From IMG/VR virus record IMGVR_UViG_3300033150_000846, positions 1 through 64,000 of that record: DNA of 64,000 nucleotides. One strand, given 5' to 3'. This DNA comes from a virus. Shown here in pieces: positions 2,059 through 52,990 of the stretch; position 1 is the stretch's first letter, and the number at the start of each line of letters is the position of its first letter. The notes below the pieces were generated by a model that did not search any database, was not told the DNA's origin, and saw only the letters and a program-made list of their open reading frames with translations. The position numbers and the translations under genes were made by a program.

Positions 2059-2675
2059 TGCGACTCGCCAAACTAGCATGTATCGCAACAATCTTTGCGG
2101 CCACCGGCCTGGCTTGTGAACCAACACTCAAGCCCTGCTTGGTTACCGCCAACTTCTCGACAAACCTTGAAGGTGACCCAGATACACGCCCTTCCACGTG
2201 GGGCATGGCCAAGGCTCAGACATGGACGCTACAATTCACCCCGCTGCCAAACACCCGAGTGGAGATTCTTGAGGTCTCAGGTGACTTAGTGGCATGGCCG
2301 ACTACAGGGGGCCTTGGCCCGGCAATTGTGGAGCCAGGCCGTTTTGCCGGAGTGCTGTTTGGGCTACAGACGACTGAGCCTGAAGGCTCAACCCGTGCTT
2401 TCCCAGCTTCCGACAACACTCTGGTCTACATTCAGGACGCGGTAGCCCAGGAGCCCAGACGTGCCTCTTTCGACCGTCACATCAGGCGTACTCTGCCTGC
2501 CGACAACAAAATCATCGTGAAGGTCGCAGTCTGGCTCAACGACACCGGCTACAAAATCCACATTGAACCAACATTCACCATCAAGTACCGTTTCGTCCCC
2601 GCCAACTACAAGGGGTGGGGAGAGTTTGGCAGCGGGGTTCTAGAGTTTCGACCGGCCTCGGAAAAGGAGGAATAA
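2058..2675 (+). CDS. exported or lipoprotein-like hypothetical protein
   Basis: A 205-residue protein with a clear N-terminal export signal (RLAKLACIATIFAATGLAC). The Cys after TGLA would suit a lipobox-like cleavage site, although the residue three before it is Gly rather than the usual Leu, so lipidation is uncertain. The mature part is beta-rich with no recognised domain. Two copies of the 15-bp interspersed motif lie inside this gene in opposite orientations (2238-2252 and 2624-2638), the second encoding FGSGV near the C terminus. It may act in the host envelope or virion surface; this is inference. Confidence 0.6.
   Translation: MRLAKLACIATIFAATGLACEPTLKPCLVTANFSTNLEGDPDTRPSTWGMAKAQTWTLQFTPLPNTRVEILEVSGDLVAWPTTGGLGPAIVEPGRFAGVLFGLQTTEPEGSTRAFPASDNTLVYIQDAVAQEPRRASFDRHIRRTLPADNKIIVKVAVWLNDTGYKIHIEPTFTIKYRFVPANYKGWGEFGSGVLEFRPASEKEE
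2238..2252 (-). repeat. interspersed 15-bp motif, copy 1
   Basis: ACCCCGCTGCCAAAC on the + strand, i.e. GTTTGGCAGCGGGGT on the - strand. Inside the exported-protein gene, read there as PLPN. Confidence 0.95.
2624..2638 (+). repeat. interspersed 15-bp motif, copy 2
   Basis: GTTTGGCAGCGGGGT in the same gene as copy 1 but in the opposite orientation, 386 bp away; encodes FGSGV. Confidence 0.95.
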
Positions 2676-6908: not shown

Positions 6909-8364
6909 GCTGCCGCCGTGGGTAGTTTACCATAGTGCTGCATACATGGGAGGTAAGGGGCTGCTGTACGGTACCGGCCCCATATACAACAGGGAGGCTC
7001 GTACCAAACAGAACTTTGCCTTTCCGGTAGAGAACGGCGATTTTTCACTATTTGCAAATGACAGATTCGACTTTGTTTTACTGGGCAGTGTTGGTGCTGA
7101 TATCACTGAGTCTGTTGTATCTGAAGCCGCCGGACACTTACGTGTAGGCGGCAACTTAATTCTTGCTCTGTCCTTCTCGGACCCTTCCTCGGCCCTCCCC
7201 CAAATCAATGAAGTTGTCTCCAAGTGTGGGTACTGGCTCAAGAAAGACCAGTTCGTCAAAGACGGCATAGTCTACGCTATTTTTAAGCGGCTTCGGGGGC
7301 GGCTTGGGCTGAAGCAGAACCCCGCTGCCAAACTCCCTCGGGCGTGTGTGAGCCGGTTGGGGGCCATTGGGGACATGATTATGGTCACTCCTTTGCTCAG
7401 GTGCTTGAAGGAGGACGGCTACTATGTGACCGTCAATGGCTCAACGGCGAGCATTCCGGTGCTGTTCAACAATCCCAATGTGGACAACATAGTTCCGCAG
7501 GTTCGCAACATTGTGCCTAACCGGGAGCTTGGGCAGTACTGGGCGTATTGGGCCAAGAAATACGATAAGTACGTGAATCTTTCTGAGAGTATTGAGGGGA
7601 CACTGTTGAAGGTCGAGGGTAGACGAGACTTCTACACAACTAAAGAGTGGCGGCACAAGATGTGCAATGTGAACTACTATGATGCTAGTTTGGCAGCGGG
7701 GTCATATGGGCATGTGAGGGGAAGGAACGGGGAGATTTACTTGACGGCCAAGGAGCGCAGGTTTGCTAAGCGGATGTTGCCGGACGATACGTTTAATATT
7801 GTGGTGTCCTTGACCGGTACTAGCCATCACAAGTATAATCCTTTGCTTGGTCCTATTCTTGGGCGATACTTGAATGAGCACCCTGAGACGAGGGTTTTCA
7901 TGGTTGGGGACGAGCGAGCCAGCCGGGTGACGTTTGTGCATTCACAGGCGATTGATCTTACGGGGAAGACAACGTTGAGGGAGGTGTTTGCTCTGGTGGA
8001 GCGGGCGGATCTGGTTATTGGGCCGGAGACGGCGCTGACAAACGCGGCTGCTTGTTTTGACACGCCTGAGATTGTCTTTTTGTCTCACAGTACGCGGGAG
8101 AACTTGACGAAGTACTGGAAAAATTGCGTGGCACTGGAGCCGGAAGGGTGTCCTTGTTACCCGTGCCACCAGCTTCATTATAGTGAGGATAGTTGTCCGT
8201 TGGCCAATATTCAAGATGAGAAAGGGGAGGTGTTGGCTACCGGTCCGCTGTGTGCTATGGGAAGCGTGTCAGCCGAGAGAATAGTCAAGGCCATCGACGA
8301 TTTGAGGGGTGACTGTGCTATAATGAAGAGGCATGGCACTACAATGGACGCGGAGCGAACTTAG
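6874..8364 (+). CDS. GT9 heptosyltransferase-like protein with N-terminal methyltransferase-like region
   Basis: A 496-residue protein. From about residue 150 it resembles ADP-heptose:LPS heptosyltransferases (GT-B fold, family GT9): SRLGAIGDMIMVTPLLRCLK for the N-terminal nucleotide-sugar fold, then VVSLTGTSHHKYNP, FMVGDE, and the acceptor/donor loop DLVIGPETALTNAAACFDTP near the C-terminal domain. The first 140 residues (FDFVLLGS...RVGGNLIL) look like the back half of a methyltransferase fold but lack a clear SAM-binding glycine motif. GT9 enzymes add heptose to LPS core; here the acceptor is unknown and could be a virion protein, host LPS or DNA. Two copies of the interspersed motif lie inside (7319, 7688). 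Confidence 0.8.
   Translation: MSSPLTKKKSSRLPPWVVYHSAAYMGGKGLLYGTGPIYNREARTKQNFAFPVENGDFSLFANDRFDFVLLGSVGADITESVVSEAAGHLRVGGNLILALSFSDPSSALPQINEVVSKCGYWLKKDQFVKDGIVYAIFKRLRGRLGLKQNPAAKLPRACVSRLGAIGDMIMVTPLLRCLKEDGYYVTVNGSTASIPVLFNNPNVDNIVPQVRNIVPNRELGQYWAYWAKKYDKYVNLSESIEGTLLKVEGRRDFYTTKEWRHKMCNVNYYDASLAAGSYGHVRGRNGEIYLTAKERRFAKRMLPDDTFNIVVSLTGTSHHKYNPLLGPILGRYLNEHPETRVFMVGDERASRVTFVHSQAIDLTGKTTLREVFALVERADLVIGPETALTNAAACFDTPEIVFLSHSTRENLTKYWKNCVALEPEGCPCYPCHQLHYSEDSCPLANIQDEKGEVLATGPLCAMGSVSAERIVKAIDDLRGDCAIMKRHGTTMDAERT
7319..7333 (-). repeat. interspersed 15-bp motif, copy 3
   Basis: ACCCCGCTGCCAAAC on the + strand, at the junction of the two domains of the heptosyltransferase-like gene, read there as NPAAK. 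Confidence 0.95.
7688..7702 (+). repeat. interspersed 15-bp motif, copy 4
   Basis: GTTTGGCAGCGGGGT in the same gene as copy 3, opposite orientation, 369 bp away; read as LAAG. Confidence 0.95.
8316..8324 (+). promoter_or_regulatory. extended -10 promoter before the adaptor gene
   Basis: TGCTATAAT, an extended -10 box (TGn plus a perfect TATAAT at 8319-8324) inside the end of the preceding gene. The ATG at 8333 lies about 2 nt from the predicted transcription start. No good -35. Confidence 0.55.
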
Positions 8365-12900: not shown

Positions 12901-13871
12901 ATCTTCGGCCACAGCCGGACAGATGGACCAACTATGTAACAGACAAAATTTCCGGAAACGAGCAAAGATTCGAGAGGCACGAGTGTATTCTAGATCCTCT
13001 TGGGAACACTGTGTACGGGACGGCTTACGTTGATGGGACGGCAGTGAGCACGTTCACTTACACCGGCACTGGGCAAACCTCTTTTGTGAATGCGTTTCCT
13101 GCTGACACGTATGGGCGCACCAGCTATACTATTTACAATGTGGCTAGTGGCCGCTTCAAACACTACAAGACATGGGTAGAGGGTCAGCCTGAGCCGGACA
13201 GGGTGGACAAACACACGGAAATCATTACTCTGCCCACAAAATCAAACCTAAAGACTTGGCTGGCCGAGCTCAACCCCCTCAACCAAACTGTGACAGGAAC
13301 AGCCTACCTGGATGGCACAGCCATAAGCACAGCAACGTTTGGCAGCGGGGTTCGTAAGGTTTTCAGTGTTGCTCTTGATTTGGATGGTTTGCACACTGTT
13401 CAGGCAGGCCATGCTGTAGAAATCAGGTATAATTGTGCTTCGGGCGTGTTTAAGCACTACAAGACTCGGCTGGAGGCTGAAGAGAAGCCCTTTGGTAAGA
13501 AACAATGGGCAATGACGTACAAGAAGGTAGGTGGGGCGACCTCCCTTGACCTTTTGCGGTATTGGCACTTGGATGCTGAAGCGGAGGGAACGGCTACTAT
13601 TACCAGTGTGTGGGACGTTGATGGTACTAGTACGCACACACAGACGCACACCTTGACAGGGAGAGAGCGTCTGTCGGACATGAGCTTTCCTCCTGGAGTC
13701 AGGGCACGCATTTGTCAGGTTAGATTGTGGAGCTCGGAGAACTTTGAAGTGTACAAGAGTGAGCTCGACATTATGCGGGTTGGTGTGAAGGGCTTTAGTC
13801 GAGTGACTGTCCCTGGTACGCCGGTTGAGCAGAAAGTTTTGGTGGGTGAGGAGCGTTTGATCAATGGGTAG
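9936..13871 (+). CDS. very large tail protein with tandem beta-domain repeats
   Basis: A 1311-residue protein starting at GTG 9936, 2 nt after the previous stop, with GGAG at 9926-9929; an upstream in-frame TTG at 9924 is less likely. Residues 1-800 resemble the nozzle or stabilisation proteins of podovirus-like tails (ATATNVDFAMGAGGARVRRGSW at the start). From about residue 810 onward there are at least four tandem units of roughly 90-100 residues, each with a VYGT.(F/Y)VD.TA(V/I)ST core, an ETYGRT strand and ending FKHYKTW. One unit carries the interspersed motif at 13337. The repeats are probably Ig-like or other beta sandwiches exposed on the virion. Confidence 0.7.
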   Translation: MKREQHLVVFNKVNSRAAEHLLAEDEVATATNVDFAMGAGGARVRRGSWKRYTAGTGTVTQLYRHYDLGLGSDSRVFAISGKDLYQGYTGTFSLVQSGGLNDANGITSYGNRVYVSLTPGGSSVAVDTDGSAVPWPPGAPSGAPTIGSSTLTPLTVVSTMTVEEGTDGGATSGTSTGTTDATTLRLEFRHVPGTSDLSVNGTHTIGDYGIHGVSLKISDPAKVVKVSQDYSIGDATFTNFWHTEMDVLLEYKSLADPETLVDSLLQSDTGTAVNADQREAMVSIARDAVRVPVSHVAAAKDSWTVWKTMRPDFKLIGEGGSWSNIGAVRIVIEARDLVTVELTDFNISGAEDYPLNDANVGYAYWETWVEKDSDGNIISESAPSPVSGRVKMQYAQATATFTDTAPATPYTHRILYAQGGYMQQPYAVATVTGTATTAVHNITDVTAISRGRPLDTGVLSALYNNITVASKPFLNRIFLGHINELMWTVPGKPNTILTGNSATVSHKGDPIRAIIPWASTLVIVNRDTIYEMHGNVFEGRGQDWVLHKTAARRGSLAFNSAIETPYGIPLVGFDGLYFYIPGQGIEQSIGWITEALKDAWEGVEITDPGTLKGGRIPVINSYIFNAVTAFGDERLYLAVPTGTDQYPKTLFVIDFKSQRVWWYTYPFSIYSLFWDAINKEVIAGSSNGAILKLEGASQDTTPDGTVTPISWLVKTKKWTTPSDLVLENVQVEYEGTGVAVHAYIDGTTTMTLGTLTSAERTWDTLPFHGTVGNSLQFKFSGLRNFDGDCCVYGVSWEALVEPPRVKYYKTDYFNNGNDGEKRWIADLTKIEIPGTSTVTKVSYVDGVAKMTSTFTGPTSGQHVFVNNFPNETYGNIAYGTLTGNGEFKVWDTQMAAENEPLPVTSWKTDVTSLEENIVDAFDCDINPGGGTVYGTCFVDNTAVSTGTFTGTKRQSYTWKLPVETYGRTVYVLYSVASGGTFKHYNTWFHLRPQPDRWTNYVTDKISGNEQRFERHECILDPLGNTVYGTAYVDGTAVSTFTYTGTGQTSFVNAFPADTYGRTSYTIYNVASGRFKHYKTWVEGQPEPDRVDKHTEIITLPTKSNLKTWLAELNPLNQTVTGTAYLDGTAISTATFGSGVRKVFSVALDLDGLHTVQAGHAVEIRYNCASGVFKHYKTRLEAEEKPFGKKQWAMTYKKVGGATSLDLLRYWHLDAEAEGTATITSVWDVDGTSTHTQTHTLTGRERLSDMSFPPGVRARICQVRLWSSENFEVYKSELDIMRVGVKGFSRVTVPGTPVEQKVLVGEERLING
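13337..13351 (+). repeat. interspersed 15-bp motif, copy 5
   Basis: GTTTGGCAGCGGGGT encoding FGSGV within a tandem beta unit. The matching position in sister units reads FTGT or similar with no length change. Confidence 0.95.
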
Positions 13872-17811: not shown

Positions 17812-17814
17812 GAG

Positions 17815-20800
17815 ATGCCGAAGCCTGAAACCCCGCCGCCAAACTCCTCATTCATTGATGAACTGCTCAGTACAGTGAAGCAGGTTCCTACCTTCTTGGG
17901 GCAGCTCCCACCTTTTGCACCAACTGAGCCGACAGCCGCTGACAAGGAGCTTCTCTCCTACTTGTCTTATTGGAACAATGTGGTGACTGAGAAGCCCAAG
18001 AGAATGGTCAATGAGCTTGGGAAAATCTTCTTTCACACCGGTGAGGACGCCGAGACCAAGCTCAACCGGGACGGCTCTCTGAAAGGTGAGGACATTCTTG
18101 GCAAGCCCCCGGAGACAGTGTACTTTTCTGATGATATGATTGCCGAGTTTCGGAAGAAGGGCTACGATGTCTCTGACTTGCCGGTGGAGCCAAGGGCTTT
18201 AAGGGCTGCGTGGGAGGCGGCCAAGCATCCCATTGAAACGGGGGTTAAGGGGCTTTTGACCCCTGTGGCGGACTTTGCGGGGATGGTATGGAAGATGGCC
18301 GAGCCTGACTATGGGCCAAACGCCCCTTTGTATGAGAAGGTCTTTAAGGACCTTACCAAGGTTTACGCTTTGGCTTATGGGCTGACGTTGAAGCCTCTAG
18401 TTGACAACATTAAGGCGACCAAGGACCCGGACGATCCGTACTCTCACATTAACATTGAACAGGGGTTGTGGAAGACCGTCGAAGACTTTCTTCCACTTCG
18501 GGAGGTGTTGGCTTTGGCGACCGGACGAAACCCGGAGACCAAGGAACTGCTCACTCCGAAGGAGTGGGGAGCCAACCTTACAACAGGCCTACTCAAGTTT
18601 TGGATGGCGAAGGCTGGAACTGATTGGGCCAGAGGGAAATGGCGGGCCGACATTGAAGTGACACACCCGGCTCTTCTGGATATTCCTAAGTCGAGGTTCT
18701 TGGAAGAGCAGCAAGCCCTTGAATTGGAGGCCGCCAAGAAGGGTATAGCGTCTGGAAAACGTGCCGCTACAAGGGAACTGAAGAAGGCTGCTGAAAAAGG
18801 GCAAAAGACTGTTGCTGAGGCAGGGGCGACTTTGGACGAGGCAATGGACGTAATTGACCTCAAGACTCCTGTGGACAAAGCTAAGCTGAGTCCGGAAGTT
18901 CGGAAGATCGCCGACCAGGTTGAGGATGCAGGGGCCGGTCCTTTGACAGTAGAGGACTTCGTTGATGTTTACAAGGAGCTAGGGCTTGAGCCTAGTACAA
19001 TACCGGACCTTACACCAGCCCAACTCTACAAGATCTTCAATGAGCTGGGGAACAGCCTCAGTGATTTGTACAAGACGAATCCTGACAAGTTCCAGGAGAC
19101 TTTGTTCAATGTTGCGATGAAGCAAGCGAAAGCTAAGAAGCTTGCCCAGGCTGCCGGTAAACCAACTGGCCTCACAAAGACCAACATATTTGCTGATCTT
19201 GTTCGGTCGGAGGCTCTTGGACCGAGGGCGATTGCTGATATTTTTAAGCGGAAAACTTTGGACACTGGCATGTCTCCGGAGGCGGTCGCCCGAGAAGCTC
19301 AGGCAATTGCAGCCTTGATTGAGGACAGTCTGAGTAAGAGCGGGGCTAGACTGAATGCTATTTCAAAGGCTACGCTGGAGGGGCTGGAAGAGGTTTTGGT
19401 TGGGAACCCCGAGGCTCTTGAGGCTCTTGGAGGGCTGAAAGAGGCGCTGAGCCGTAACTACAAGTACATGGGGACTTTCCAGAAGATAAACTACTTCTAC
19501 AGAAAGTTTGGCCTGAAGTGGACTCGTGGTGGAGCTACTTCCCAGCCCGCTACTGTTGCCCGTAACGTCAGTGTTCAAGGCGGGGCTTATCTTGTGGGCA
19601 CATGGGAAGACTTCTTGGGTGATTTGCGAATATGGACCAAGAGCATGAAGGATGCTGTAACCCGAGGAGCAAGACCCCTGTCTCCGTCAGAGGCTTTTCA
19701 TCAAACCCTTTTTGACATCACCAATATCATTCATCAGTTACATGGGGCAAGTGTCAAGGCCTACGGTTTGGGTAAGTTCGCCCTTACCAAGATGGGCAAG
19801 AAGACAGGGGAGAACACCTATGAGTACATAGTGAAGAACCCTAAGAACTTCAAACCCCTTTACAATGTCTATGACAAGATCATGGAGGCTCTTCCCGTAG
19901 AGGAGGCTGCCAAGCTGGAGCACACGTTCTCAATGGAGTTTGAACCAGCCAGTGTCATGACTAAGGCTTACTGGAAGAACTTCATTAAGAAAGTCACTGT
20001 CTTGAACAGAGACCCAACTTACGGCCCTATGTCCAGGCTCGCCAAGCAGGGAGCTACCATCATGGACACGATAGTGGACCTTGGTGGCATAGGAAACATG
20101 ACGCAAGAACTCTTTTGGCGCAGGGCATTCTTTGTGCGGGCCGTTGAAAAATATGCACGTGAAAGGGGCTACCTTGGGGCTGAGGATTATTGGCAAGCAC
20201 TGAAGGCAGGACGTACTGACTCACGCACCACCATGATTGGCGGGTTCCGCAATGCTGAAGAGGCTTTGGCTAGACTCAAGAAGCTCAAGGAAGAAGATAT
20301 TCCGCAAATGGCTGATGAGACAGTGACCAAGATGGCTCAAAGCTTCAAGAAGCGAATGAAGGACCCTTACAAGCTTGGGAACCGGATTCTCGAAGCCCGA
20401 AAAAACATAATTGATGACTTGAATAAGAAGGCGGACGAAGCCATAAGGCTGTTGGAAGCGAAAGTCAACCCGAACGAGGCCCTTGGAGTGTTGCCCGACA
20501 GTCTTGCTAAAAGGCTTGGAGGGGAAGTTGAAACCGACATGACTGTGATTAGTAGGGCCAGACATGAAGCGCATGTGAACACGTTTGCGGCAACTCCTCC
20601 TCAACACACTTTTGCCGGGCATGTTTTGCAAGCCTACAGAACACTTCCCCTTGCAGGAGTAGGGCCTTGGTTTCCTCGCTTTCTGTCCAACTTGTACACC
20701 TGGATGAATGAGCGCAATCCTTTGGCTTACAGCCAGTTCGCCAAAACACGGATTGCACAAGAGCTGGACGCTTTTGTTGGAAAGCGCACTACGGTCGGTT

Positions 20801-21933: not shown

Positions 21934-22184
21934 CGTTGAATGGGCGCTTACGCAACATAACAGACTCGAAGATGCTTGTAGGCATCATCATAATGCTCAT
22001 TAGTGCTTGGGCATCTTGGTCTACAACCGCGATCATACGAGCTTCGGAGCAACGCGCCCAAATCAGAGAAAACGTCCAAAGGAATGCTACCACGAACGAG
22101 AGCATTCAGAAGAGTCTGGAAGACATCAAGAAGACTGTAGACACTCTTCTACAGTTAGAGTTGGAGAGAGTCAATGCACGTTAA
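21930..22184 (+). CDS. small membrane protein with coiled coil
   Basis: An 84-residue protein whose ATG overlaps the previous TGA. One membrane segment (about residues 16-37, MLVGIIIMLISAWASW) is followed by a charged coiled coil. The topology and closeness to the endolysin gene suggest a lysis role such as pinholin or i-spanin, but neither is proven. It overlaps the next gene by 11 nt. Confidence 0.6.
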   Translation: MTLNGRLRNITDSKMLVGIIIMLISAWASWSTTAIIRASEQRAQIRENVQRNATTNESIQKSLEDIKKTVDTLLQLELERVNAR

Positions 22185-22701
22185 ACACCTCCTCTTGTAT
22201 CCGCAGGTCATACAAGAGTGGATCACTAATATAGAGGCCAAGAAGGACAACGTAGAGGAGCCAAGCAAGAGCCCAAAGCCCCTGTTTACTGATCCGGAGG
22301 GAGAAGCTCTAATGGCCAACCTCCGCAAACTCTTCTTGGCCAGGGGAATCAAGGACATGACATCCCAGGAAGTTTTCTCTCTCCAGCCCTCTAGAGAAAA
22401 GATGTCAATGGAGGAGATGTTTGGCAGCGGGGTCATCCTCGACAAAGTTCGGGGGAAGATTCAGCGGTCTTTCAGCAACGACGAAATTCGGGCTGGAATC
22501 TCCAGGGCTGTGGGTAGCAAAGCTTTGCGAAGAGACCTGTACACGGTTCTGCCGAAAGCAAAAGGAAAGCTTCCGGAGCGGTTTCCGGACAGAACCAATC
22601 TTGGGGCATTGCGTGACGGAGCCGAGAGGGTTTTGGACTATCTTGTGGCCTCGAAAAAAGTGAGAAAAAAGTCGCCCAGGCCCTTGACAAACTTCCCCTA
22701 G
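22174..22701 (+). CDS. hypothetical helical protein
   Basis: A 175-residue basic, helical protein without recognised motifs. It contains a copy of the interspersed motif (22419-22433, read as FGSGV). Its last codons overlap the -35 box of the small RNA promoter at 22684. It may be a virion or lysis-region protein; unknown. Confidence 0.6.
   Translation: MHVKHLLLYPQVIQEWITNIEAKKDNVEEPSKSPKPLFTDPEGEALMANLRKLFLARGIKDMTSQEVFSLQPSREKMSMEEMFGSGVILDKVRGKIQRSFSNDEIRAGISRAVGSKALRRDLYTVLPKAKGKLPERFPDRTNLGALRDGAERVLDYLVASKKVRKKSPRPLTNFP
22419..22433 (+). repeat. interspersed 15-bp motif, copy 6
   Basis: GTTTGGCAGCGGGGT, encoding FGSGV, 301 bp upstream of and inverted relative to the copy at the 5' end of the small RNA. 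Confidence 0.95.
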
Positions 22702-22712
22702 TGTAGTATACT
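22684..22712 (+). promoter_or_regulatory. strong sigma70-type promoter of a small RNA
   Basis: TTGACA (22684-22689), 17-nt spacer, TATACT (22707-22712). Predicted start near 22719. Shares the GGCCCTTGAC/CCCTTGAC context with the promoter at 50522. Confidence 0.85.
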
Positions 22713-22719
22713 GAAAATA

Positions 22720-22734
22720 ACCCCGCTGCCAAAC
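22720..22734 (-). repeat. interspersed 15-bp motif, copy 7 (in small RNA)
   Basis: ACCCCGCTGCCAAAC on the + strand, starting within 1-2 nt of the predicted transcription start. Confidence 0.95.
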
Positions 22735-22736
22735 AC

Positions 22737-22780
22737 AGAGTGGTTGGGATGTAGAACCGGCATCCCAGCCACTCTTTTTG
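22737..22780 (+). terminator. strong intrinsic terminator of the 22.7-kb small RNA
   Basis: AGAGTGGTTGGGATG (22737-22751) pairs with CATCCCAGCCACTCT (22761-22775), 15 bp with one G.U, then TTTTTG. It ends the small RNA before the endolysin ATG at 22798. Confidence 0.9.
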
Positions 22781-22797
22781 TATTGGGGCCGTTTACT

Positions 22798-23316
22798 ATG
22801 AGAACCAAAGTGATGGTAGGAGCCATTGCCTGTTGCCTGGCAGTGAGGCAAGGAGCAGAGGTGGCTATACCGAAGAAACTTGAGAGAGAAATGGTTAGTC
22901 CGAACCGAGACCTCAGTATTGAAGAGCAGGCACCCTTGGTACTTTTGCCTATGACTGTGTGGGGAGAGGCAAGAGGGGAGCCGTTCCTTTCCAAGATCTG
23001 TGTTGCTCATGTCATTGTGAACAGGAGCAAGAAGCGCCGTATGTCGATCAAGGAGGTGGTGCTTCAGCCGAAGCAGTTCTCGGTATTTAACCTGAATGAT
23101 CCTAACAGGGACAAGCTGCTGTTGGCGGATTCCTTGGAAGGTGAAGAGGTTTGGGGAGAGTGCGTGGCGGCTTCGTGGGTTGCCCTGGTAAGCCGGGAGT
23201 ATGATCCGACTAACGGGGCAACCCACTACTACTCAGGGAAGCGGCGGCCCAAGTGGGCAAAGAGAATGAGAGAAACCCTTACTCTTGGGCGTCTTCACTT
23301 TTTGCGTCCTGGGTAA
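22798..23316 (+). CDS. endolysin, SleB-type cell wall hydrolase
   Basis: A 172-residue protein. TVWGEARGEP (about residues 52-61) is the signature of the Hydrolase_2/SleB family of cell wall lytic enzymes; the VAHVIVNRS, QPKQFSVF and GATHYYS motifs follow in family order. The Glu of WGEARGE is the expected catalytic acid. The N-terminal 20 residues (VMVGAIACCLAV) are moderately hydrophobic and could act as a signal-arrest-release or export signal. ATG 22798 is chosen because an upstream in-frame TTG at 22744 lies inside the terminator hairpin. It converges with the leftward genes, overlapping by 38 bp. Confidence 0.85.
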   Translation: MRTKVMVGAIACCLAVRQGAEVAIPKKLEREMVSPNRDLSIEEQAPLVLLPMTVWGEARGEPFLSKICVAHVIVNRSKKRRMSIKEVVLQPKQFSVFNLNDPNRDKLLLADSLEGEEVWGECVAASWVALVSREYDPTNGATHYYSGKRRPKWAKRMRETLTLGRLHFLRPG

Positions 23317-23530
23317 GGTAGAGGCCGTCGTTTCTGATGGTTGTCGGCTTTCCTTTGCTGACTAAGTGGCAGAAGTCAGCGAATCCCTCCTTTAGAGTGT
23401 TGAGCTTGGCTTCCAGAAGCGTAATGGAAATCAAGTACTTCTGAAAGATCTTCTCCTCTAGCTTGGACATTTCAATTTTGACGGGAGGCGGAGCCTCTCG
23501 GGCTGTGGGGGATTTACTTTTTTGTGACAT
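23279..23530 (-). CDS. hypothetical protein at the convergent junction
   Basis: An 83-residue protein starting MSQKSKSPTAREAPPP. The inner ATG at 23530 is preferred over an upstream in-frame ATG because it sits at the end of the HTH gene, a normal overlap spacing. The body is helical (EEKIFQKYLISITLLEAKLNTL). Function unknown. It is the last gene of the leftward block and overlaps the endolysin tail-to-tail. Confidence 0.55.
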   Translation of the reverse strand: MSQKSKSPTAREAPPPVKIEMSKLEEKIFQKYLISITLLEAKLNTLKEGFADFCHLVSKGKPTTIRNDGLYLTQDAKSEDAQE

Positions 23531-23834
23531 GGTGATTCTCCTGCTGGTCGGTGCCGTACATTTCATTGAAGATATATTCGGGTAGAGATGGGCCGTGAGT
23601 TTTCATGTGCTGGAGGCGGTCGTATCGAGCTTTCCATCTCTTTAGGTTCTTTATTATGTGGGCTTCGACAGTGGGTACGTCGAAGAAGATTGGCTTTCCT
23701 CTTGTGCCCTTTGTTCTTGGTATTGGGCGTGGGTTGTATCCTTTGTGACAGTTTTGGTACATTGTGGCCTTTGATATTCCCAGCACGCGAGTCACTTCCT
23801 CTAAAGTCAAAACGGTTCTTTTGGTTTGCTCCAT
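23514..23834 (-). CDS. AlpA/MerR-like helix-turn-helix protein
   Basis: A 106-residue protein. Residues about 8-35 (LTLEEVTRVLGISKATMYQ) form a winged helix-turn-helix like those of AlpA, excisionase-type and MerR N-terminal domains, followed by the expected wing with IPRTKGTRGKPIFFD. Such proteins regulate promoters or act as recombination directionality factors; some terminase small subunits also carry this fold. With no integrase in the window a regulator is more likely. It overlaps the next leftward gene by 17 nt. Confidence 0.7.
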   Translation of the reverse strand: MEQTKRTVLTLEEVTRVLGISKATMYQNCHKGYNPRPIPRTKGTRGKPIFFDVPTVEAHIIKNLKRWKARYDRLQHMKTHGPSLPEYIFNEMYGTDQQENHHVTKK

Positions 23835-23847
23835 GTCTTTGTTCCTC

Positions 23848-24402: not shown

Positions 24403-24415
24403 AGTGTTACCGCCT

Positions 24416-25252
24416 TTATTGGCATTCAATTCCTTTTTCGTTGAAGGCAAACGATAGTTGCTTGCTTGGAGGCAGTTCGTCAGTTGGGCAGAGCTCGACA
24501 TTGGAGGTTTGAGACACCTCAGGAGCAGCAGTACTGAGTACTACGGGAGCACTTCCTGCACTGCTTGGAGTTTGGCAGCGGGGTTCAAAGCTGAGGACGA
24601 TGGGGAGGATTTTGTTGGCAGTGTCTGCTGAGGTTTCGGTTCGTGGATCGGTAGTAACTGTGAAGTCACAGTAGTAGGGGTGAAGAGAGTTTTCGGAAGG
24701 GTGGCGGGCTTGCTTTCCGGTAAGGAAACGAACTGGAGCAGGATTGTGTACCCAAAAGATGCTGCCGTTGTGACGGCGGATTGCCTCAACTTCGTTGGGG
24801 AAGCGGACATCGTCAATGAGGATGAACCGATTCTTAACAGGGGGTAGGAAGAGTCGGCTTTTTGTGAAGAAGGCAGTTACCCAGTAGTTTGGGTCTTGGG
24901 CTCGGCGGTAAGAGGTGCCCCACCATTGAAGAAGCCAACGGACAAGAGGGGCAGGAGGCTTGATGTAGAGTAGCTCCGTTATGTCTTTCTTTCTCAAGGT
25001 GAGGTAGTACTGACCAATGGCGGCGGCTATGGTTTTAGCTTTGAGAGATGGAGGAGAGTTAAGGGGTCTTCCGAAGTAGAGGTCTCTTAGCTCGTCACGG
25101 ACGGCGTCGGCAAAGCTACGAACACAAGTCGAGGTTTGTGGGCGCTCCTTTAGGCGACGGGCTAAAGCATGGGCAATGGAGGTTTTACCGGCTCCGGCTT
25201 TACCTGCAAAGCCAACAAGGATTGGAGGCTTTTGTAAGGAGTTAGGTTGCAT
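24416..25252 (-). CDS. deoxynucleoside monophosphate kinase
   Basis: A 278-residue P-loop kinase: Walker A GFAGKAGAGKTS (about residues 14-25), a DDVRFPNEVEAI motif near 147-158 and HPSENSL near 184-190, the pattern of phage dNMP kinases related to T4 gene 1. These phosphorylate dNMPs, including hydroxymethyl or other modified ones, for DNA synthesis. The last 70 residues are a Ser/Pro-rich tail without homology that I see, beginning at the interspersed motif (24570-24584, read as PRCQT here). Confidence 0.8.
   Translation of the reverse strand: MQPNSLQKPPILVGFAGKAGAGKTSIAHALARRLKERPQTSTCVRSFADAVRDELRDLYFGRPLNSPPSLKAKTIAAAIGQYYLTLRKKDITELLYIKPPAPLVRWLLQWWGTSYRRAQDPNYWVTAFFTKSRLFLPPVKNRFILIDDVRFPNEVEAIRRHNGSIFWVHNPAPVRFLTGKQARHPSENSLHPYYCDFTVTTDPRTETSADTANKILPIVLSFEPRCQTPSSAGSAPVVLSTAAPEVSQTSNVELCPTDELPPSKQLSFAFNEKGIECQ
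24570..24584 (+). repeat. interspersed 15-bp motif, copy 8
   Basis: GTTTGGCAGCGGGGT on the + strand inside the leftward dNMP kinase gene, at the border of the kinase fold and its tail. Confidence 0.95.
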
Positions 25253-26136: not shown

Positions 26137-26138
26137 TG

Positions 26139-28627: not shown

Positions 28628-31366
28628 TTACATTCTTATAGTGTGGATGGTTTGGCAGTCTCCCCATGACCGGCCCTTCCCGCTGTAGCCTACTTCTACT
28701 CCCAGCCTGAAGCCTTCAAGTTCACGCCAAGGTTGTGTAGCTACCGCAATGAGAGCTTTTGCTGCTTCTTCATGGGATTCGTCCGGACCTTGTACAACCA
28801 GCTCATCGTGGACTTGGATGCTAAGGTACCAGCCTTCTGGCAAGACTGCCGTTGTTGCTAAACGTAGTTGTTCAATTTCTTCTGAAAAACGCTCGGGGTG
28901 GAGAGCAATCATTATTCTGAGGACTATGTCTGCGAGGGAGGAGGCAGGCAAGAAAGCCAGCGCCTTGTTTTCCATGCGGGCCATGTTGAACCATCGTTTG
29001 CGGCCAAACGGGTTGACTAGGAAACCTTGTCTTTGGGCAAGTTTGATGGTTCGTTCTTGCCAAGCAGCAGTCTCGGGGTTGAGTTCAGTTGACCAAATGT
29101 GAATCATCCTCTTTACATCTTGGGCGGTTATCGAGGTGTAGCCTTCGTTGTGGATATACTCAAGGGTCTTCTTCCACTTGAGGCCGTAGTTCCTACCGTG
29201 GTTCACGATTTTGCCTAGTTTGTACAGGTGAGAGTTCTCTCCGTGTTTGCGGACAGGAACACCAAAGGCCCGAGTAGCAATGTCTTCATGTTCGTTGTAG
29301 CCAGGAGTGTGGAGGCGCTTGAGCCTGTCTGTGTCGTTAGCTAGAAAGGCGGTCAGCATGTTCTCCCCCTGGATTATGTCCGCCGTGATGAAACTGAAGG
29401 ATGGGTCATCGGGGACGAACAATTTGCGAATTTCTTTTGGTTGGTTTTGGATGTTGGGGTCTATGCCTCGACGTTGGCCGGAACAAGAGAGACGGCCTTC
29501 ACTCGTGCCATGGACCTTGAGGGAGAAAAAGACTCTGTCTACTTCTGTAAGGCCGTTCTTTGCAAATGTGTTGAGGAGAGTAGCCGTCTTCTTGATTTGG
29601 TCGAGGATGATGAATTCAGGGGCTTTGGTAGCCCAAAGTGTCCTGGCCGACTTGTCGGTTGCTATCTTGCCCGAAGGTGTAAGCTTCGCTTTCAGCCCTT
29701 TTGCCTCAATGTACTTGCGCAACTCAACCGGGCTATTCCAAGGACGTACAACTTTCTCAACATCTTCTGTAATGAGAGTTGCCTTCTTCATGACCCCAGG
29801 CTCTATCATCCGTCCACAGACTGGGCAGGGTTTGGCAGCGGGGTTCAAAAATGTGATTGGAGTGGGGTCATGGGCAGTTTTGTCTTTGACGAAGCCTTTA
29901 CAGATTTTTGTTTTGGCTTTCCAGGGAGCCCGGTCTTCAGGGATGCGCGTGAACTTCTTGTGTTTTTCTGTGTAGGGGCGGAGTTCGGGAGGGAGCTTGG
30001 CTTCCAGGGAGGCAATTTGGTTTGTGTACTCTTCCCTGATTTTGACGAGGGCGGTCTTGTCTATTTTGAGGCCCCTGTTGTTCATGTCTCGGCATATAAA
30101 GGCTGCCGGTATCGACACGTTTGTGTAGACGTGGCGCATGTTGTAGTGGTCTAAGAGGGTTTGGAGAGGTTTTGAAATTTGAAGGGAAGCGTCAGTGTCT
30201 CTGGCGTTGTAGAGAGCAAAGGCTTCTTGGGTAGAGGTACAGCCGCCGTAGCCGCCCAGTTCTCTTGGGATTGCGCTGGGTTGGTTCCAAGTTTTGTGTT
30301 GGGAAGAGAAGACGATGTTTCCTTTTTCGTCTTTGTGGGAAGAGGAGCCGCCCTTCCAAGCTACCTTGTTTGTAAATACACTGGCGACGAAAGCGAGAGA
30401 GTGGGGGAAGTCGGGCTGAACTAAATGCTGGATGAGCATTGTGTCGATGTACTTGGCTTTTACGTCCCATCCTAGTGCGTTGAAGTAGAGACTGTCAGCC
30501 CCGACTATGTTGTGGCCGATGAGAGCTTCTGCGTTTTCGAATATGCGTTTTAGTTCTTGGATGTAGGGCTCGACGAAGGGGACTACAATGGCAGTGTAAG
30601 GTTTGGCGGACAAACCGCAGAGGGTTATTTCGCCTGTGTTGGGGTCCCACTCAAAGTCGAAAGCGAACTTTTTGGGAGAGAAATTCTTTACTTCTTCTAT
30701 GGTTGGGGCAAGGTTGTAGTTCTCTGGGGGAACTGCTGGGTACCTTCTGAAGTCTACCGTGGCACACACCGAGAAAAGTTTAGAGTCACGAGCATGAGCG
30801 GCGGGGTGAATGGTAGGGATTACTAGGGGCTTGGAGGAGTGTAAAGAGCCACAGTCCAGGGGAAGAGGGGAACCTCTCCAAGTGTGAATGCCTTCTCGCT
30901 TTGTTAGGGCTTTCAGGGCTTTGTTGCCTAAAGCAATTATGCGTTGCCATTTTTGGGTCTTGAGGTATGGGAGCAGGTGATGGTTTCGGCAATACTTTAG
31001 AGCCGCGTAGGCATCTTCCTTGGGTGTGAAGGTCCAGTCAGGATCACCGGGAAAAATGTTCTTTGGCGGGCGGCACCCAATTACGTTAATGATATGGAAG
31101 ATAGATCTGTCTAGGCCTGCATTTCGTAGAAGGGAGTTTAACCAGCGGCCTGCCCCTCCAACAAAAGGTTGCCCAGCATAAACTTCGTCTTCACCGGCAG
31201 CTTCACCTACTAAGAGCTCTGGCCTAGTTCCTTTGTGGGGTGGGATGTAGCCTAGTGTGACGTGGGCTATTGGGCACTTTGCACAGAAGGAAGGCCTGTT
31301 CTTGTTTAGTTCGCTTCTTACTGAGGGGTCGAAGAAGGGGGCTAGCGCCTTGTCAACTTTTGGCAT
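28628..31366 (-). CDS. family A DNA polymerase fused to N-terminal uracil-DNA glycosylase-like domain
   Basis: A 912-residue fusion. Residues about 1-200 are a family 4/5-type uracil-DNA glycosylase: CAKC near 28, VGEAAGEDEVYAGQPFVGGAG near 53-73, GCRPPKN near 98 and HPAAH near 184. Next comes a 3'-5' exonuclease with DFEWD (ExoI), GHNIVGAD (ExoII) and YNARDTD (ExoIII), then the polymerase: motif A ADIIQGE, motif B KIVNHGRNYG, motif C QVHDELVV. The residue matching E. coli Pol I Phe762 is His (His723). It is the replicative polymerase of the phage. The interspersed motif at 29830 encodes NPAAK just before a CPVCGR segment between exonuclease and polymerase. Confidence 0.9.
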   Translation of the reverse strand: MPKVDKALAPFFDPSVRSELNKNRPSFCAKCPIAHVTLGYIPPHKGTRPELLVGEAAGEDEVYAGQPFVGGAGRWLNSLLRNAGLDRSIFHIINVIGCRPPKNIFPGDPDWTFTPKEDAYAALKYCRNHHLLPYLKTQKWQRIIALGNKALKALTKREGIHTWRGSPLPLDCGSLHSSKPLVIPTIHPAAHARDSKLFSVCATVDFRRYPAVPPENYNLAPTIEEVKNFSPKKFAFDFEWDPNTGEITLCGLSAKPYTAIVVPFVEPYIQELKRIFENAEALIGHNIVGADSLYFNALGWDVKAKYIDTMLIQHLVQPDFPHSLAFVASVFTNKVAWKGGSSSHKDEKGNIVFSSQHKTWNQPSAIPRELGGYGGCTSTQEAFALYNARDTDASLQISKPLQTLLDHYNMRHVYTNVSIPAAFICRDMNNRGLKIDKTALVKIREEYTNQIASLEAKLPPELRPYTEKHKKFTRIPEDRAPWKAKTKICKGFVKDKTAHDPTPITFLNPAAKPCPVCGRMIEPGVMKKATLITEDVEKVVRPWNSPVELRKYIEAKGLKAKLTPSGKIATDKSARTLWATKAPEFIILDQIKKTATLLNTFAKNGLTEVDRVFFSLKVHGTSEGRLSCSGQRRGIDPNIQNQPKEIRKLFVPDDPSFSFITADIIQGENMLTAFLANDTDRLKRLHTPGYNEHEDIATRAFGVPVRKHGENSHLYKLGKIVNHGRNYGLKWKKTLEYIHNEGYTSITAQDVKRMIHIWSTELNPETAAWQERTIKLAQRQGFLVNPFGRKRWFNMARMENKALAFLPASSLADIVLRIMIALHPERFSEEIEQLRLATTAVLPEGWYLSIQVHDELVVQGPDESHEEAAKALIAVATQPWRELEGFRLGVEVGYSGKGRSWGDCQTIHTIRM
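29830..29844 (+). repeat. interspersed 15-bp motif, copy 9
   Basis: GTTTGGCAGCGGGGT on the + strand inside the leftward polymerase gene, read as NPAAK on the coding strand. Confidence 0.95.
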
Positions 31367-35171: not shown

Positions 35172-36188
35172 CTAGGAGAGTCCCATGTAGGCAGTTGGGT
35201 CAACTGTAACGAATTCAGGGTGTGAAGACGGAATAACAGCATCCTGAGTATTGTGAAGCTCAAAGTACTGGCAAGTCTGTCTCCACGTAGAGCAGTTGGG
35301 CCGCCATGGTGGAACACTCCTAATACCCTCTTTCATCATTGTCATCATTGTGTCGGCTACCTTGATAATTTCCGGTAGAGATTGGTTGAGGAGTCTCTCT
35401 TGGGTCCTGGTGACTGCGAACCTGTAGAAGTTGCACTTGGGGGCGGACTTTGGTTCTTTTACTGGAGCAAAGTCTTGTTCATGTCCACACAATTGGCACT
35501 TGTACTTGCCCTTCTGAGTAATTGTGTAAGCGTCGAAAGGCTGAATAACCCTGCAATTTTTGCAGGTTCGCTTTGGTTTGTGAATGTTGGGCTTTTCAAG
35601 AACATTCACCAGCAATCCTTGGATAGGCCCGATCTTGTGACTAAGGGCTAGGAGTTGAAAGTCAGCTTGCATGTTCGACTGCCACCCCTTCATGTAAAGG
35701 GGCATTGGGACATAACTGGATTTTGTCTTGTGCTCTTTGATCCACCATCCTTTAGTGAGAAGTGTCGTATCGCCCTGCCAACCCGTAGGCATTTCCACGT
35801 CTTCCTCCACATAGAAGTACCTATCAACCTTAGCAAGCAACGCTAAGTCCTTGGTAATAGGCCGGATAACCGGCTCCTCCACAGAGAATTGTTTGGCAGC
35901 GGGGTCATTAGTGTAGTTGCTGGTATACTGGTCTAACAGAAGGTGTGCCATAAACAGGGCATCCTTAGTTGGATCAAACTCCTTTATGACCTCTTCGCTT
36001 ATCTCGTAATTGCCGGTAGCATAGAAATTTTCTAGCCCACTGTGGACTAAGGCTCCTATGCATAAAGGGTCGTCTCGCTGGCCAAGATGTCTCCGTACAC
36101 GTTTGGTAACATAGTTCTCGTACCAGTGCCACGGACATATCCCGGTAAACTGGTAGTATTGTGAGTGGTCAATAATGAACTGGGTCAT
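35172..36188 (-). CDS. RecB/Cas4-like PD-(D/E)XK nuclease
   Basis: A 338-residue protein of the PD-(D/E)XK_1 type: GALVHSGLENFY near residues 45-56 (His motif), LLAKVDRYFYVEED near 116-129 (Asp), and GWWIKEHKTKS near 147-157 (E-x-K). A Cys4 zinc site (CKNC...CQLC) follows near 207-235 and further Cys/Trp residues near the C terminus may hold a [4Fe-4S] cluster as in Cas4. Likely a phage recombination or DNA-processing exonuclease. The interspersed motif at 35891 encodes NDPAAK within it. Confidence 0.75.
   Translation of the reverse strand: MTQFIIDHSQYYQFTGICPWHWYENYVTKRVRRHLGQRDDPLCIGALVHSGLENFYATGNYEISEEVIKEFDPTKDALFMAHLLLDQYTSNYTNDPAAKQFSVEEPVIRPITKDLALLAKVDRYFYVEEDVEMPTGWQGDTTLLTKGWWIKEHKTKSSYVPMPLYMKGWQSNMQADFQLLALSHKIGPIQGLLVNVLEKPNIHKPKRTCKNCRVIQPFDAYTITQKGKYKCQLCGHEQDFAPVKEPKSAPKCNFYRFAVTRTQERLLNQSLPEIIKVADTMMTMMKEGIRSVPPWRPNCSTWRQTCQYFELHNTQDAVIPSSHPEFVTVDPTAYMGLS
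35891..35905 (+). repeat. interspersed 15-bp motif, copy 10
   Basis: GTTTGGCAGCGGGGT on the + strand inside the leftward RecB-like nuclease gene. Confidence 0.95.
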
Positions 36189-38196: not shown

Positions 38197-39211
38197 TTGC
38201 TTTCTCCTTTTTCGTTTTTCCTTCAGTGTTCTCTTGCATGATGACTGCAAGGAGAGCACCGTTCAACAACTCGATGCATTCAGGGCAGAGAACATCAGTG
38301 TTGCCCTTTGTGGGCTTGTGGCACCTAATGCACTGTGTTACGGTTTTGGAAACCCCGCTGCCAAACAGCTGAGCTATAGGGGGATTGACTGGGGAGGCGT
38401 AGGGACCTCTGTAGTAGCGCTGGTAAGGAAGTTCGTAAGAATCGTCGTCTTGAAAAGTGTGGATTGCGGAAGCTGCTCGTTTCCAAATTCCTCGTTCGCC
38501 AAAAGGGAGGTCAGCGATGGGAACCAAGTTTTGTGTGTCAGCGTCGAGGTCCACCGCATAAAGAACTTTAGGATCGATTGTGTAAATGCTGGGCTCTTCT
38601 TCTCCGGTTGCAAACCTGTAGGCTGTGGTCAATGCTTCCATGGTTGAGGCGTAAGCTGTGCCGCCTTCTGGAAGATCGACAAAGTACAAAGCCTCGTGGT
38701 TGAAGCGGAAGAAAATCATGTAAGGCTTTGGGGTGGTTACGAGGGCGGCACAGGAGCCCCAGCCTCGAATTTCCCCAACGTCCTTTTTGAGTAGGAGGTA
38801 GTCCCATATGATTTGGGAGTCCACTTCGTACTTCAGGGAGCTTTTTGTGAGGAGTTCTTTGAAGTTGGAGATGACGCCGTTGTGAGTACCGGCGACCTTC
38901 ACGAAACTGCCGTCCTCTTCTTTGCGACCAAAGAGGAAGGGGTGAGCGTTTTCTTTTGTTACATCACCGTGAGAGGCTGCCCTAGTGTGGGCGATGAAGG
39001 GGGATTTTGCTTTTGCAGGTTTGCTCAGCAGCTTCTTGGTGAAGAAGGCGGAGCTTATTCTGCCTACGTCCTTCTGGATTTTGATGCCGTCTTTGTCGAA
39101 GTAGGCCAGCCCGTAGCTGTCAGTTCCACGGGCTTCCATAGCATTGGCGAGGAACGGGGCCATAATGGCTGCTTGTTTGTTGAATTCAGTGAATCCGAAA
39201 ATTCCACACAT
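38165..39211 (-). CDS. class II glutamine amidotransferase (Ntn hydrolase) with C-terminal zinc ribbon
   Basis: A 348-residue protein starting MCGIFGFTEF: the Cys directly after Met is the Ntn nucleophile of GlmS/PurF/AsnB-type glutaminases. ARGTDSYGLAYF, IAHTRAASHGDVTKENAHPF and GTHNGVISNF follow as in the family. No synthase domain follows, so the ammonia or a hydrolysis product must go to a partner. The C terminus carries a Cys4 zinc ribbon (CIRC..CPEC), preceded by the interspersed motif (FGSGV). It opens a cluster with two amidoligases and an ATP-grasp enzyme. The start at 39211 is fixed by the need for Cys at position 2. Confidence 0.85.
   Translation of the reverse strand: MCGIFGFTEFNKQAAIMAPFLANAMEARGTDSYGLAYFDKDGIKIQKDVGRISSAFFTKKLLSKPAKAKSPFIAHTRAASHGDVTKENAHPFLFGRKEEDGSFVKVAGTHNGVISNFKELLTKSSLKYEVDSQIIWDYLLLKKDVGEIRGWGSCAALVTTPKPYMIFFRFNHEALYFVDLPEGGTAYASTMEALTTAYRFATGEEEPSIYTIDPKVLYAVDLDADTQNLVPIADLPFGERGIWKRAASAIHTFQDDDSYELPYQRYYRGPYASPVNPPIAQLFGSGVSKTVTQCIRCHKPTKGNTDVLCPECIELLNGALLAVIMQENTEGKTKKEKANERAVYTAGN
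38352..38366 (-). repeat. interspersed 15-bp motif, copy 11
   Basis: ACCCCGCTGCCAAAC on the + strand; on the coding strand of the amidotransferase gene it reads GTTTGGCAGCGGGGT and encodes FGSGV. Confidence 0.95.
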
Positions 39212-40966: not shown

Positions 40967-41727
40967 TTTTCCTCGTTGATTCTGGTTTCAAGAAACTCGG
41001 CTGTCTCTTCGCCTAGAGATTGAAGGCTTTCGCTTGGGTTTTGTAGGAGTAGTGTTTGGAGGAAGCGCCGCCTTGTGTGAGGAGACTTCAGGGCGAAAGC
41101 GGAGTTGACCTCCAAGACAATGAACTCTCCTGAAGGAAGTTGTAGAATGTCTACAGCTCCAAAGTCATAACCGAGGGCGTCTACAGCTTTTCGAGCAAGA
41201 GGGCGGATTCCTTTGGGAGGCTTCTCAGTGAAGGAAATTACCCATCCTAGCCGCCTTGAGCGGATGTTTGGCAGCGGGGTTTCCTCTAGGGAGACTTTTT
41301 TGCCGACAGCGAAAGTTCGGGCTTTTGGAAGGTAAGAAGAGCTTGCACAGAAGACTCTCCACTCAGCGGTTACTTCGCTGATCCAGGCTGTCCAATAGTC
41401 GGCAGTAAGCCACTTTTCTGAGATAGTGCGTGGTGGTGTTGGGAAGTAGATGAAGCGGCCTTGTGAATGGTTGTTACGGCGACCTACTACTAGTTGACCT
41501 TCGCAAAGGCCTTGTGTTGCTTCCTGTAGTGTAGTGTAGAAAGTTGGAACGGGAATTTCGTGGTCTTTGAGAAGGGAAAGTTGGTTGAGGCCGTAGAGTT
41601 TTGGTTGACCTCCTATGGAGTTGGGGCGTTCTATGCCCCAAGCGAGGTCTTGGTCTGAGGGGATTGGGGCTAGGGTGTTTCGTAGCCAACGTACAGTTGG
41701 CCACTTCGAGTTGCCGTAGACTTTCAT
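40963..41727 (-). CDS. ATP-grasp ligase
   Basis: A 254-residue protein with the ATP-grasp C-terminal signature FGAVDILQLPSGEFIVLEVNSA near residues 190-211 (Asp, Glu and Asn Mg2+ ligands) and a basic strand QLVVGRRNNHSQG in the nucleotide-binding lobe. The size and the ALGYDFGAVD phrase resemble phage and RimK/YheC-like ATP-grasp peptide ligases. With the amidoligases it probably joins amino acids or modifies a peptide or protein end. The interspersed motif at 41266 encodes PLPN in a loop. Confidence 0.75.
   Translation of the reverse strand: MKVYGNSKWPTVRWLRNTLAPIPSDQDLAWGIERPNSIGGQPKLYGLNQLSLLKDHEIPVPTFYTTLQEATQGLCEGQLVVGRRNNHSQGRFIYFPTPPRTISEKWLTADYWTAWISEVTAEWRVFCASSSYLPKARTFAVGKKVSLEETPLPNIRSRRLGWVISFTEKPPKGIRPLARKAVDALGYDFGAVDILQLPSGEFIVLEVNSAFALKSPHTRRRFLQTLLLQNPSESLQSLGEETAEFLETRINEEN
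41266..41280 (+). repeat. interspersed 15-bp motif, copy 12
   Basis: GTTTGGCAGCGGGGT on the + strand inside the leftward ATP-grasp gene. Confidence 0.95.
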
Positions 41728-49628: not shown

Positions 49629-50075
49629 GGGGAAAATGCACGCCTGCCTCACTTTCTTTCTCGGCGACCAATCGCAAGCCTAAAGCCCCGTACCTTGCCT
49701 AGCCTGCCGCTTAAGGCGCGTTCCTCTCAGCCCAGCCTGCTCCACCCTAGCCTAGCCTAGCCTGTCGCTCGCCTAGCCCCAGTCCCTAGCCAATGCCCTA
49801 AGCCTAGCTAGTCCAAGCCTTAGCAAACCTAGCGAAAGTTTCGGAGCCCCCTAGGCGATAAGAAAAAGGTTGGGGGCGGGCAATCAAAGCGCGTCTGTTT
49901 AGGGGCAGGAGGGGCGTTATACCCGCTTTCGCCCCATCCCTACCTTTCCAAACCTTCCCCCGCTGCCAAACCCTTTATTTTCACCAACTTAAGGGGGGCT
50001 CCCCCTCCCAAAGCCCCCAACCATGTAAAATTTACATAGTCAGCCAAAAAATCCAAAAAAGATTTTCACCCCTCT
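49629..50075. other. CTAG-rich non-coding region
   Basis: No gene seen. From about 49676 the + strand becomes C-rich, with many CCTAG/CTAGCC words including a CCTAGCCTAGCCTAGCC run near 49751-49766. Base composition of the + strand switches here from G-rich (left) to C-rich (right). One interspersed 15-bp motif copy lies at 49957. Could be an origin, packaging or regulatory region. Confidence 0.5.
49957..49971 (-). repeat. interspersed motif, copy 13 (only intergenic copy besides the small RNA)
   Basis: CCCCCGCTGCCAAAC on the + strand: the 13-bp core is intact, with the outermost A of the 15-mer replaced by C. Confidence 0.9.
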
Positions 50076-52655: not shown

Positions 52656-52990
52656 ACAAAGTGTGGGGATGCGAGCAAATCGTCATAAACCGCGACTTTT
52701 GCTTCAAGATCATGTACGTGTTGCCCCATGCCCGCTCTTCAATTCACAAGCACGCAAAGAAGGACGAGCTCTTCTACGTCCTGAAAGGCCCAATACTCTT
52801 CGAGGTCGGCAAAAACATTCGCCGTCGTCGCGAAATTGTGGCCCACGAAGGAACAATCATTCACGTTCCCCCGAACACCTGGCACCGATTTACTAACTTT
52901 GGCAGCGGGGTTACACAATTTTTAGAAGCTTCTACACACGATGATCCAAACGACTCAAGACGAGCAACGAAGAGTACTCGCAATTTCTGA
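52613..52990 (+). CDS. cupin-domain protein (sugar isomerase-like)
   Basis: A 125-residue single cupin with the two metal motifs: SSIHKHAKKDELFYVLKG (about residues 41-58, His, His, Glu) and HVPPNTWHRFTN (about 84-95, His). The ending FLEASTHDDPNDSRR is typical of sugar-related cupins of the mannose-6-phosphate isomerase type. Next to heptose genes it could be an isomerase or epimerase for the sugar pathway; this is context only. The interspersed motif (52897) encodes FGSGV between the second metal motif and the end. Confidence 0.7.
   Translation: MGKYTPQPEEAKLVNKVWGCEQIVINRDFCFKIMYVLPHARSSIHKHAKKDELFYVLKGPILFEVGKNIRRRREIVAHEGTIIHVPPNTWHRFTNFGSGVTQFLEASTHDDPNDSRRATKSTRNF
52897..52911 (+). 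repeat. interspersed motif, copy 14
   Basis: CTTTGGCAGCGGGGT: intact 13-bp core plus T, with the first G replaced by C. In the cupin gene, read as FGSGV. Confidence 0.93.

Follow-up and report, generated by a model that had tools for sequence, protein, structure and literature searches.

An asymmetric 16-bp motif dispersed in a tailed phage genome: a candidate recognition site on double-stranded DNA, with one copy at the predicted start of a short RNA upstream of the endolysin gene

Why does one short sequence recur at 16 places in a phage genome, mostly inside genes, and also form the first bases of a predicted short RNA? The question was raised by a stretch of viral DNA of 64,000 nucleotides, hereafter the window, which nearly spans the whole virus record of 64,275 bases. 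The two ends of this record have 114 bases in common, so that the genome map is a circle of 64,161 bp. The gene content is that of a tailed phage and includes a phiEco32-type peptide-ligase cluster along with SU10-like adaptor proteins and a Sak4-like annealing protein; a family A DNA polymerase and an exonuclease are also encoded. The best matches of the polymerase in the annotated collection were about 24% identical, and no close phage was present there.

Several other traits of this genome were recorded. The major capsid gene is broken by about 630 bp (4490-5124) carrying a LAGLIDADG ORF (4569-5120); it is unbroken in most relatives, a gap occurs close to this point in G009, and an Rfam search of the interruption gave no intron match. 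The large terminase seems to be split into two ORFs (52941-55682) with cytidylyltransferase-like and SprT-like ORFs between them, and both halves, as well as the cytidylyltransferase-like ORF, have homologues in distant relatives. Three similar small proteins of about 75 aa, coiled-coil in appearance, are encoded in tandem at 36642-37354. The main intergenic region, which separates divergent gene blocks, holds eight copies of ACCTGGCTCTAACA (50076-50514), mostly on the plus strand on one side of an AT-rich stretch and on the minus strand on the other. This cluster likely represents the iterons of a replication origin; the three copies covered in G003 were unaltered there whereas their flanks vary.

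The predicted short-RNA unit upstream of the endolysin gene

The unit from which the question arose comprises the following features, all on the plus strand.

22684..22689, +: -35 element TTGACA, overlapping the last codons of ORF 22174-22701
22707..22712, +: -10 element TATACT, with a 17-bp spacer from the -35 element
22719..22734, +: motif copy AACCCCGCTGCCAAAC, predicted +1 to +16
22719..22780, +: predicted short RNA or leader RNA of about 62 nt, ending at about 22780
22737..22775, +: intrinsic terminator hairpin (stem 22737-22751 / 22761-22775, loop 22752-22760), followed by TTTTG
22798..23316, +: endolysin gene (Cell Wall Hydrolase, Hydrolase_2), beginning 18 bp past the RNA end

The initial annotation had described a consensus promoter, a start on the motif, a 15-bp terminator stem and an exposed 5' end on a hairpin, and this description was borne out. 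The promoter (TTGACA-17-TATACT) matches the consensus at 11 of 12 positions; its sigma70-like score is tied for second best and is among the three best of the whole window, and the motif begins exactly at the predicted +1, base 22719. The terminator has 15 pairs, including one G-U, and a 9-nt loop, and is the longest terminator-like stem found when both strands were scanned. The predicted RNA would consist of the 16-nt motif, two spacer bases, the hairpin and a U-tract, and its predicted fold, at -29.9 kcal/mol (z = -5.3), leaves 11 nt unpaired at the 5' end. Within 115 bp, the promoter is followed by the short RNA, its strong terminator and then the lysis gene, the motif copy lying some 80 bp ahead of the endolysin start. 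No Rfam family scored above threshold against the short RNA, sub-threshold matches being limited to microRNA precursors and due to the hairpin; the hairpin was sought in other viral contigs and not found.

A second promoter-short RNA-terminator unit, located at 6324-6425 (TTGACT-17-TATAGT, hairpin 6402-6419), contains no motif copy. It abuts another near-consensus promoter at 6426 and is 99% identical in G004.

Distribution, conservation and origin of the motif copies

AACCCCGCTGCCAAAC is an asymmetric, non-palindromic motif of 15-16 bp with 16 copies in the genome, as follows. "Pairing" designates copies whose orientation would allow the 5' end of the short RNA to pair with the mRNA of the gene.

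2237..2252, +: ORF 2058-2675, non-pairing
2624..2639, -: ORF 2058-2675, pairing
7318..7333, +: glycosyltransferase-9 ORF 6874-8364, non-pairing
7688..7703, -: glycosyltransferase-9 ORF 6874-8364, pairing
13337..13352, -: ORF 9924-13871 (start at 9924 or 9936), pairing
17829..17844, +: codon 5 of ORF 17815-21933, one internal mismatch, non-pairing
22419..22434, -: ORF 22174-22701, G at the first base, pairing
22719..22734, +: intergenic, at the predicted transcription start (TSS)
24570..24585, -: ORF 24416-25252 (probably a dNMP-kinase-like gene), non-pairing
29830..29845, -: DNA polymerase A ORF 28628-31366, non-pairing
35891..35906, -: exonuclease ORF 35172-36188, non-pairing
38351..38366, +: glutamine amidotransferase-like ORF 38165-39319, pairing
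41266..41281, -: ORF 40963-41727, non-pairing
49956..49971, +: intergenic, at a distance of 105 bp from the putative origin iterons
52897..52912, -: cupin-like ORF 52613-52990, last base changed, pairing
57971..57986, -: tail-spike ORF 57775-60402, pairing

Sixteen sites with three mismatches or fewer were found against 0.75 expected, a number reached in 0 of 100 shuffles. The distribution of matches is bimodal, with 13 exact 15-mers, three one-mismatch sites, no two-mismatch site and a single three-mismatch site attributable to background. Six copies are on the plus strand and ten on the minus strand, and no bias of orientation with respect to the replication strand was apparent by inspection. 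At a coding density of 95%, the presence of 14 of the 16 copies in ORFs is about as expected, the two intergenic ones being those at 22719 and 49956. Genic copies are found on both strands and in each of the three reading frames, and the peptides they encode differ (FGSGV, LAAG, NPAAK, TPLPN, PRCQT). The copies are spaced somewhat more evenly than random placement would give (P = 0.04 by the Greenwood statistic as well as for the largest gap), and P falls to about 0.0015 once close copies are merged. No clear base conservation was seen flanking the 16 motif bases.

Conservation was evaluated with six IMG/VR loci, distributed over five contigs, that share about 92-98% identity with portions of the window. 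These fragmentary contigs, from two data sets, cover nine motif sites and allow 13 site-by-contig comparisons; none covers 11573-30765, where the short-RNA gene lies. The motif core of 15 bases showed 0 substitutions in 195 positions, versus 128 in 2590 (4.9%) in the flanks of 100 bp each side (P about 5e-5), and at third codon positions the numbers were 0 of 60 and 76 of 752 (10.1%; P about 0.002). Pairing copies (0/90), non-pairing copies (0/90) and the intergenic copy (0/15) were equally free of substitutions. Several of these contigs had been found by means of the motif, and the search was repeated with proteins as a control: protein-based scans again gave contigs L002, G004 and L052 and no contig lacking the motif. 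Two side observations concern single sites. G004 and L052, which belong to different assemblies, both stop at base 52910, inside copy 52897-52912, which may reflect strain variation at the site or chance; and the tail-spike gene, which contains internal repeats, matches L052 and G004 in a mosaic fashion and retains the motif copy close to its 5' end.

A polymerase-alignment search yielded fifteen more distant relatives at 35-53% identity. Neither the motif nor any comparable dispersed repeat was found in the ten distant-relative contigs (43-70 kb) that were fetched whole. When site-bearing proteins were aligned with these relatives, most alignable sites were ungapped and showed other residues in the relative, so that the alignable copies came about, for the most part, by substitution in place and not by insertion; some alignments were gapped near the site, and several site-bearing genes had no alignable homologue. 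Mobile insertion as the origin of the copies is accordingly disfavoured, a judgement limited to genes with homologues.

Other explanations of the motif were discarded. Protein-level conservation does not fit three reading frames, different peptides and variable positions in homologues. A role as promoter of a phage RNA polymerase or of sigma54 finds no flanking conserved bases, half of the sites oppose transcription, and no RNA polymerase is among the families listed. Close pairs (300-390 bp) as looping partners are no commoner than chance (P = 0.16). As for a motif of the host genome, the 114 16-mer matches in 84,980 species genomes are close to the chance number, with one per stretch among the matches listed. 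On the evidence of sequence comparison, the motif is lineage-specific and is held at 16 places, in both orientations, by nucleotide-level selection.

Proposed pairing with mRNAs and possible recognition of the DNA duplex

In the initial annotation the RNA was considered as a regulator hitting many phage genes through its 5' end, and the seven genes named as carrying the sense complement (2058, 6874, 9936, 22174, 38165, 52613 and 57775) are correct, the third starting at 9924 or 9936. A network in which the first 16 nt pair with and regulate seven phage mRNAs can draw on several observations. Complementarity to the RNA 5' end is perfect over 15-16 nt in all seven mRNAs, and the seed duplexes have energies of -29.9 to -32.1 kcal/mol, the next-best site anywhere in the mRNAs being at -20.5; these values were computed with the seed alone, whole-sRNA energies being dominated by the hairpin arms and uninformative. 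The 5' end is free on a stable hairpin, and trans-acting phage sRNAs exist, such as VpdS (about 50 nt) and lambda PreS (PMC12197685). The opposite orientation, however, is as well represented. Non-pairing genes, counted earlier as six, are actually seven (2058, 6874, 17815, 24416, 28628, 35172 and 40963), genes 2058 and 6874 holding the motif in both orientations, so that genic copies divide 7 to 7. Perfect 16-mers make up four of the seven copies in either class, and perfect duplex windows number 13 on the mRNA strand versus 12 on the antisense-strand control. The pairing sites, moreover, lie at 7% to 92% of ORF length, away from ribosome-binding sites and mostly within structured stretches of mRNA (mean unpaired probability 0.18-0.45), and two copies are intergenic. 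Since non-pairing copies are no rarer, less exact or less conserved, pairing does not appear to be the reason for the motif, and such a network is very unlikely. From the regulator proposal there remain the predicted short RNA, its motif 5' end and its terminator, while the idea that the motif is kept in genes for pairing has to be given up; a side effect of the short RNA on some mRNA may exist.

Recognition of the motif as double-stranded DNA, by a phage or host protein, accommodates both orientations. This reading, to which we give about an even chance together with the view of the TSS copy as an operator over a terminated leader RNA, is suggested by orientation-neutral copies, by the conservation of both classes and by a placement largely indifferent to genes. 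The leader with a transcribed operator is in turn suggested by the +1 to +16 position, by a promoter of a strength that would call for control and by the nearby endolysin gene. A putative sequence-specific protein, phage-encoded or from the host, would recognise the 16-bp duplex in either orientation. At 22719 the motif would be a transcribed operator over +1 to +16 of a strong host-type promoter, a classical position of repressor action where repressors such as LacI bind. The bound protein would set the amount of short leader RNA made and the frequency at which RNA polymerase passes the terminator into the endolysin gene, and the RNA would start with the motif since the operator is transcribed, not as a pairing seed. 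The other 15 copies may serve the same protein genome-wide, in structuring, titration, nicking or packaging. The motif, the selection on it, its indifference to orientation and, as sequence, the promoter and terminator are observed, while the binding protein, its promoter effect, the read-through into the endolysin gene and the use of the other 15 copies are what we infer. The annotation's alternative of a decoy for something that binds the motif is retained in altered form: a binder is still proposed, recast as a DNA-binding protein with other sites in the genome. Sixteen copies, largely built in place in unrelated genes, would imply a putative sequence-specific protein with a genome-wide job.

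Candidates for such a protein were sought among the families listed, which comprise the best 25 per scan, so that a DNA-binding protein or a nickase may be missed. The only recognisable small HTH-like protein among them is a weak HTH_17/excisionase-like one encoded at 23514-23834; its structure model is of moderate confidence (pLDDT 72) and gave weak excisionase/MerR-like fold matches, none with E below 0.001. A further candidate, at 25646-25969, has a low-confidence structure model. Neither a repressor nor an integrase was recognised among these families. Candidate endonucleases are a LAGLIDADG protein, which has no counterpart in the distant relatives, and an endonuclease VII-like protein.

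Points can be raised against the operator. A non-palindromic motif is a poor fit for the usual dimeric repressor, although asymmetric repressor sites are known from L5-type repressors (PMC9283540), and with one copy only at a promoter the operator covers one sixteenth of the sites. Chance remains a real rival, the probability of the TSS coincidence being about 0.003-0.026 according to the way of counting: for any of 16 randomly placed copies to begin no more than 3 bp from the start site of one of the top 3-10 promoters, in the same orientation, P was 0.003-0.009 in a post hoc test, and it was 0.026 with 10 promoters and a 10-bp tolerance. That one dispersed copy happens to lie at the TSS of an unrelated promoter-terminator unit would also agree with the motif-free unit at 6324-6425, but the exact +1 fit at a top-three promoter in the same orientation (P about 0.003) and the presence of another copy (22419..22434), inverted relative to the TSS copy and 300 bp upstream of it, make this unlikely. 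A low probability is likewise assigned to a late leader, in which a late factor would let RNA polymerase through the leader terminator, as in lambda Q/6S RNA or AlpA PalpB, with the motif as loading site or incidental. It is compatible with the operator and draws on the order of elements inside 115 bp, AlpA of P. aeruginosa and Q being known to work at such promoter-terminator-lysis units; the AlpA element, however, lies between -35 and -10 (PMC9371919) and not at +1 to +16. The action of Q and AlpA also depends on a -10-like pause sequence within the initially transcribed region, whereas +1 to +16 (AACCCCGCTGCCAAAC) has none. No Q-like antiterminator is among the families listed, where distant Q proteins are easily missed, the endolysin gene could instead share a transcript that begins further upstream, and the remaining 15 motif copies would be left unexplained.

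The motif may otherwise mark sites at which a phage nickase interrupts one strand of the packaged DNA, in the manner of T5, phiKMV-like and LUZ24-like phages. The anatomy is the same, with about 14 asymmetric copies along the phage genome compared to 16 here, 14 of them coding, and candidate endonucleases are encoded. All described nick motifs, however, are confined to a single strand, as opposed to 6 plus and 10 minus here; those of T5 and LUZ24-like phages are shorter, and those of phiKMV-like phages are partly degenerate. A LAGLIDADG protein with a single motif would moreover be expected to work as a dimer, on a site that is nearly palindromic. We regard nicking as unlikely.

Returning to duplex recognition, one extension deserves mention, to which we lend very little credence: a genome-copy counter for lysis, in which the TSS-bound protein would repress the 22719 promoter while the other 15 copies, present on each newly replicated genome, titrate it. 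The endolysin promoter would then open only after enough genomes had been made, and dispersed, orientation-neutral, gene-indifferent sites would be purposeful decoys.

Comparison with known systems

Likenesses to four groups of known elements can be drawn, but the present case cannot be claimed as a member of the nick-motif, L5-type stoperator or Q/AlpA class. The phage sRNAs VpdS and PreS resemble the predicted RNA in size, free 5' end and 3' intrinsic terminator; unlike in these sRNAs, perfect copies are equally frequent here in the non-pairing orientation, and selection for pairing is unsupported. The lambda pR'-6S RNA-tR' and AlpA PalpB-tB units share with the locus a strong promoter, a short terminated leader, an intrinsic terminator and a lysis gene, but here no Q or AlpA homologue was found among the families listed, the initially transcribed region has no pause element, and the sequence element lies outside the -35/-10 spacer.

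The L5-type operators and stoperators of Cluster A mycobacteriophages are more than 20 dispersed asymmetric 13-mers recognised by a monomeric repressor, and at least one of them lies at a promoter (PMC9283540, PMC6550527). Asymmetry, dispersal and a copy overlapping a strong promoter (22719 at +1) are common to both systems. L5 stoperators, however, occupy mostly short intergenic gaps in one orientation to transcription, reversed sites being inactive, whereas 2 of 16 copies are intergenic here and orientation is 7:7. The nick motifs of tf/LUZ24-like, phiKMV-like and T5 phages are likewise asymmetric and exact, with 13-14 copies in the tf group, coding as well as non-coding, and their placement is gene-indifferent: in 61 related Pseudomonas phages, 88% of nick motifs were coding, equal to the coding density (PMC3517423, PMC11780129). 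Their positions are conserved among relatives, as are those of the present motif in close relatives. They differ in being confined to one strand and shared by a whole phage group, while the present motif, known from sequence alone, is longer, occurs on both strands and belongs to one narrow lineage. Nick motifs, whose function has been a riddle for about 50 years, and stoperators are the two best-known precedents, and each obeys a strand or orientation rule that is broken here. This phage may therefore provide a clean test bed for why phages retain dispersed motifs, and the TSS copy before the endolysin gene singles out one promoter for measurements of binding and of what it does.
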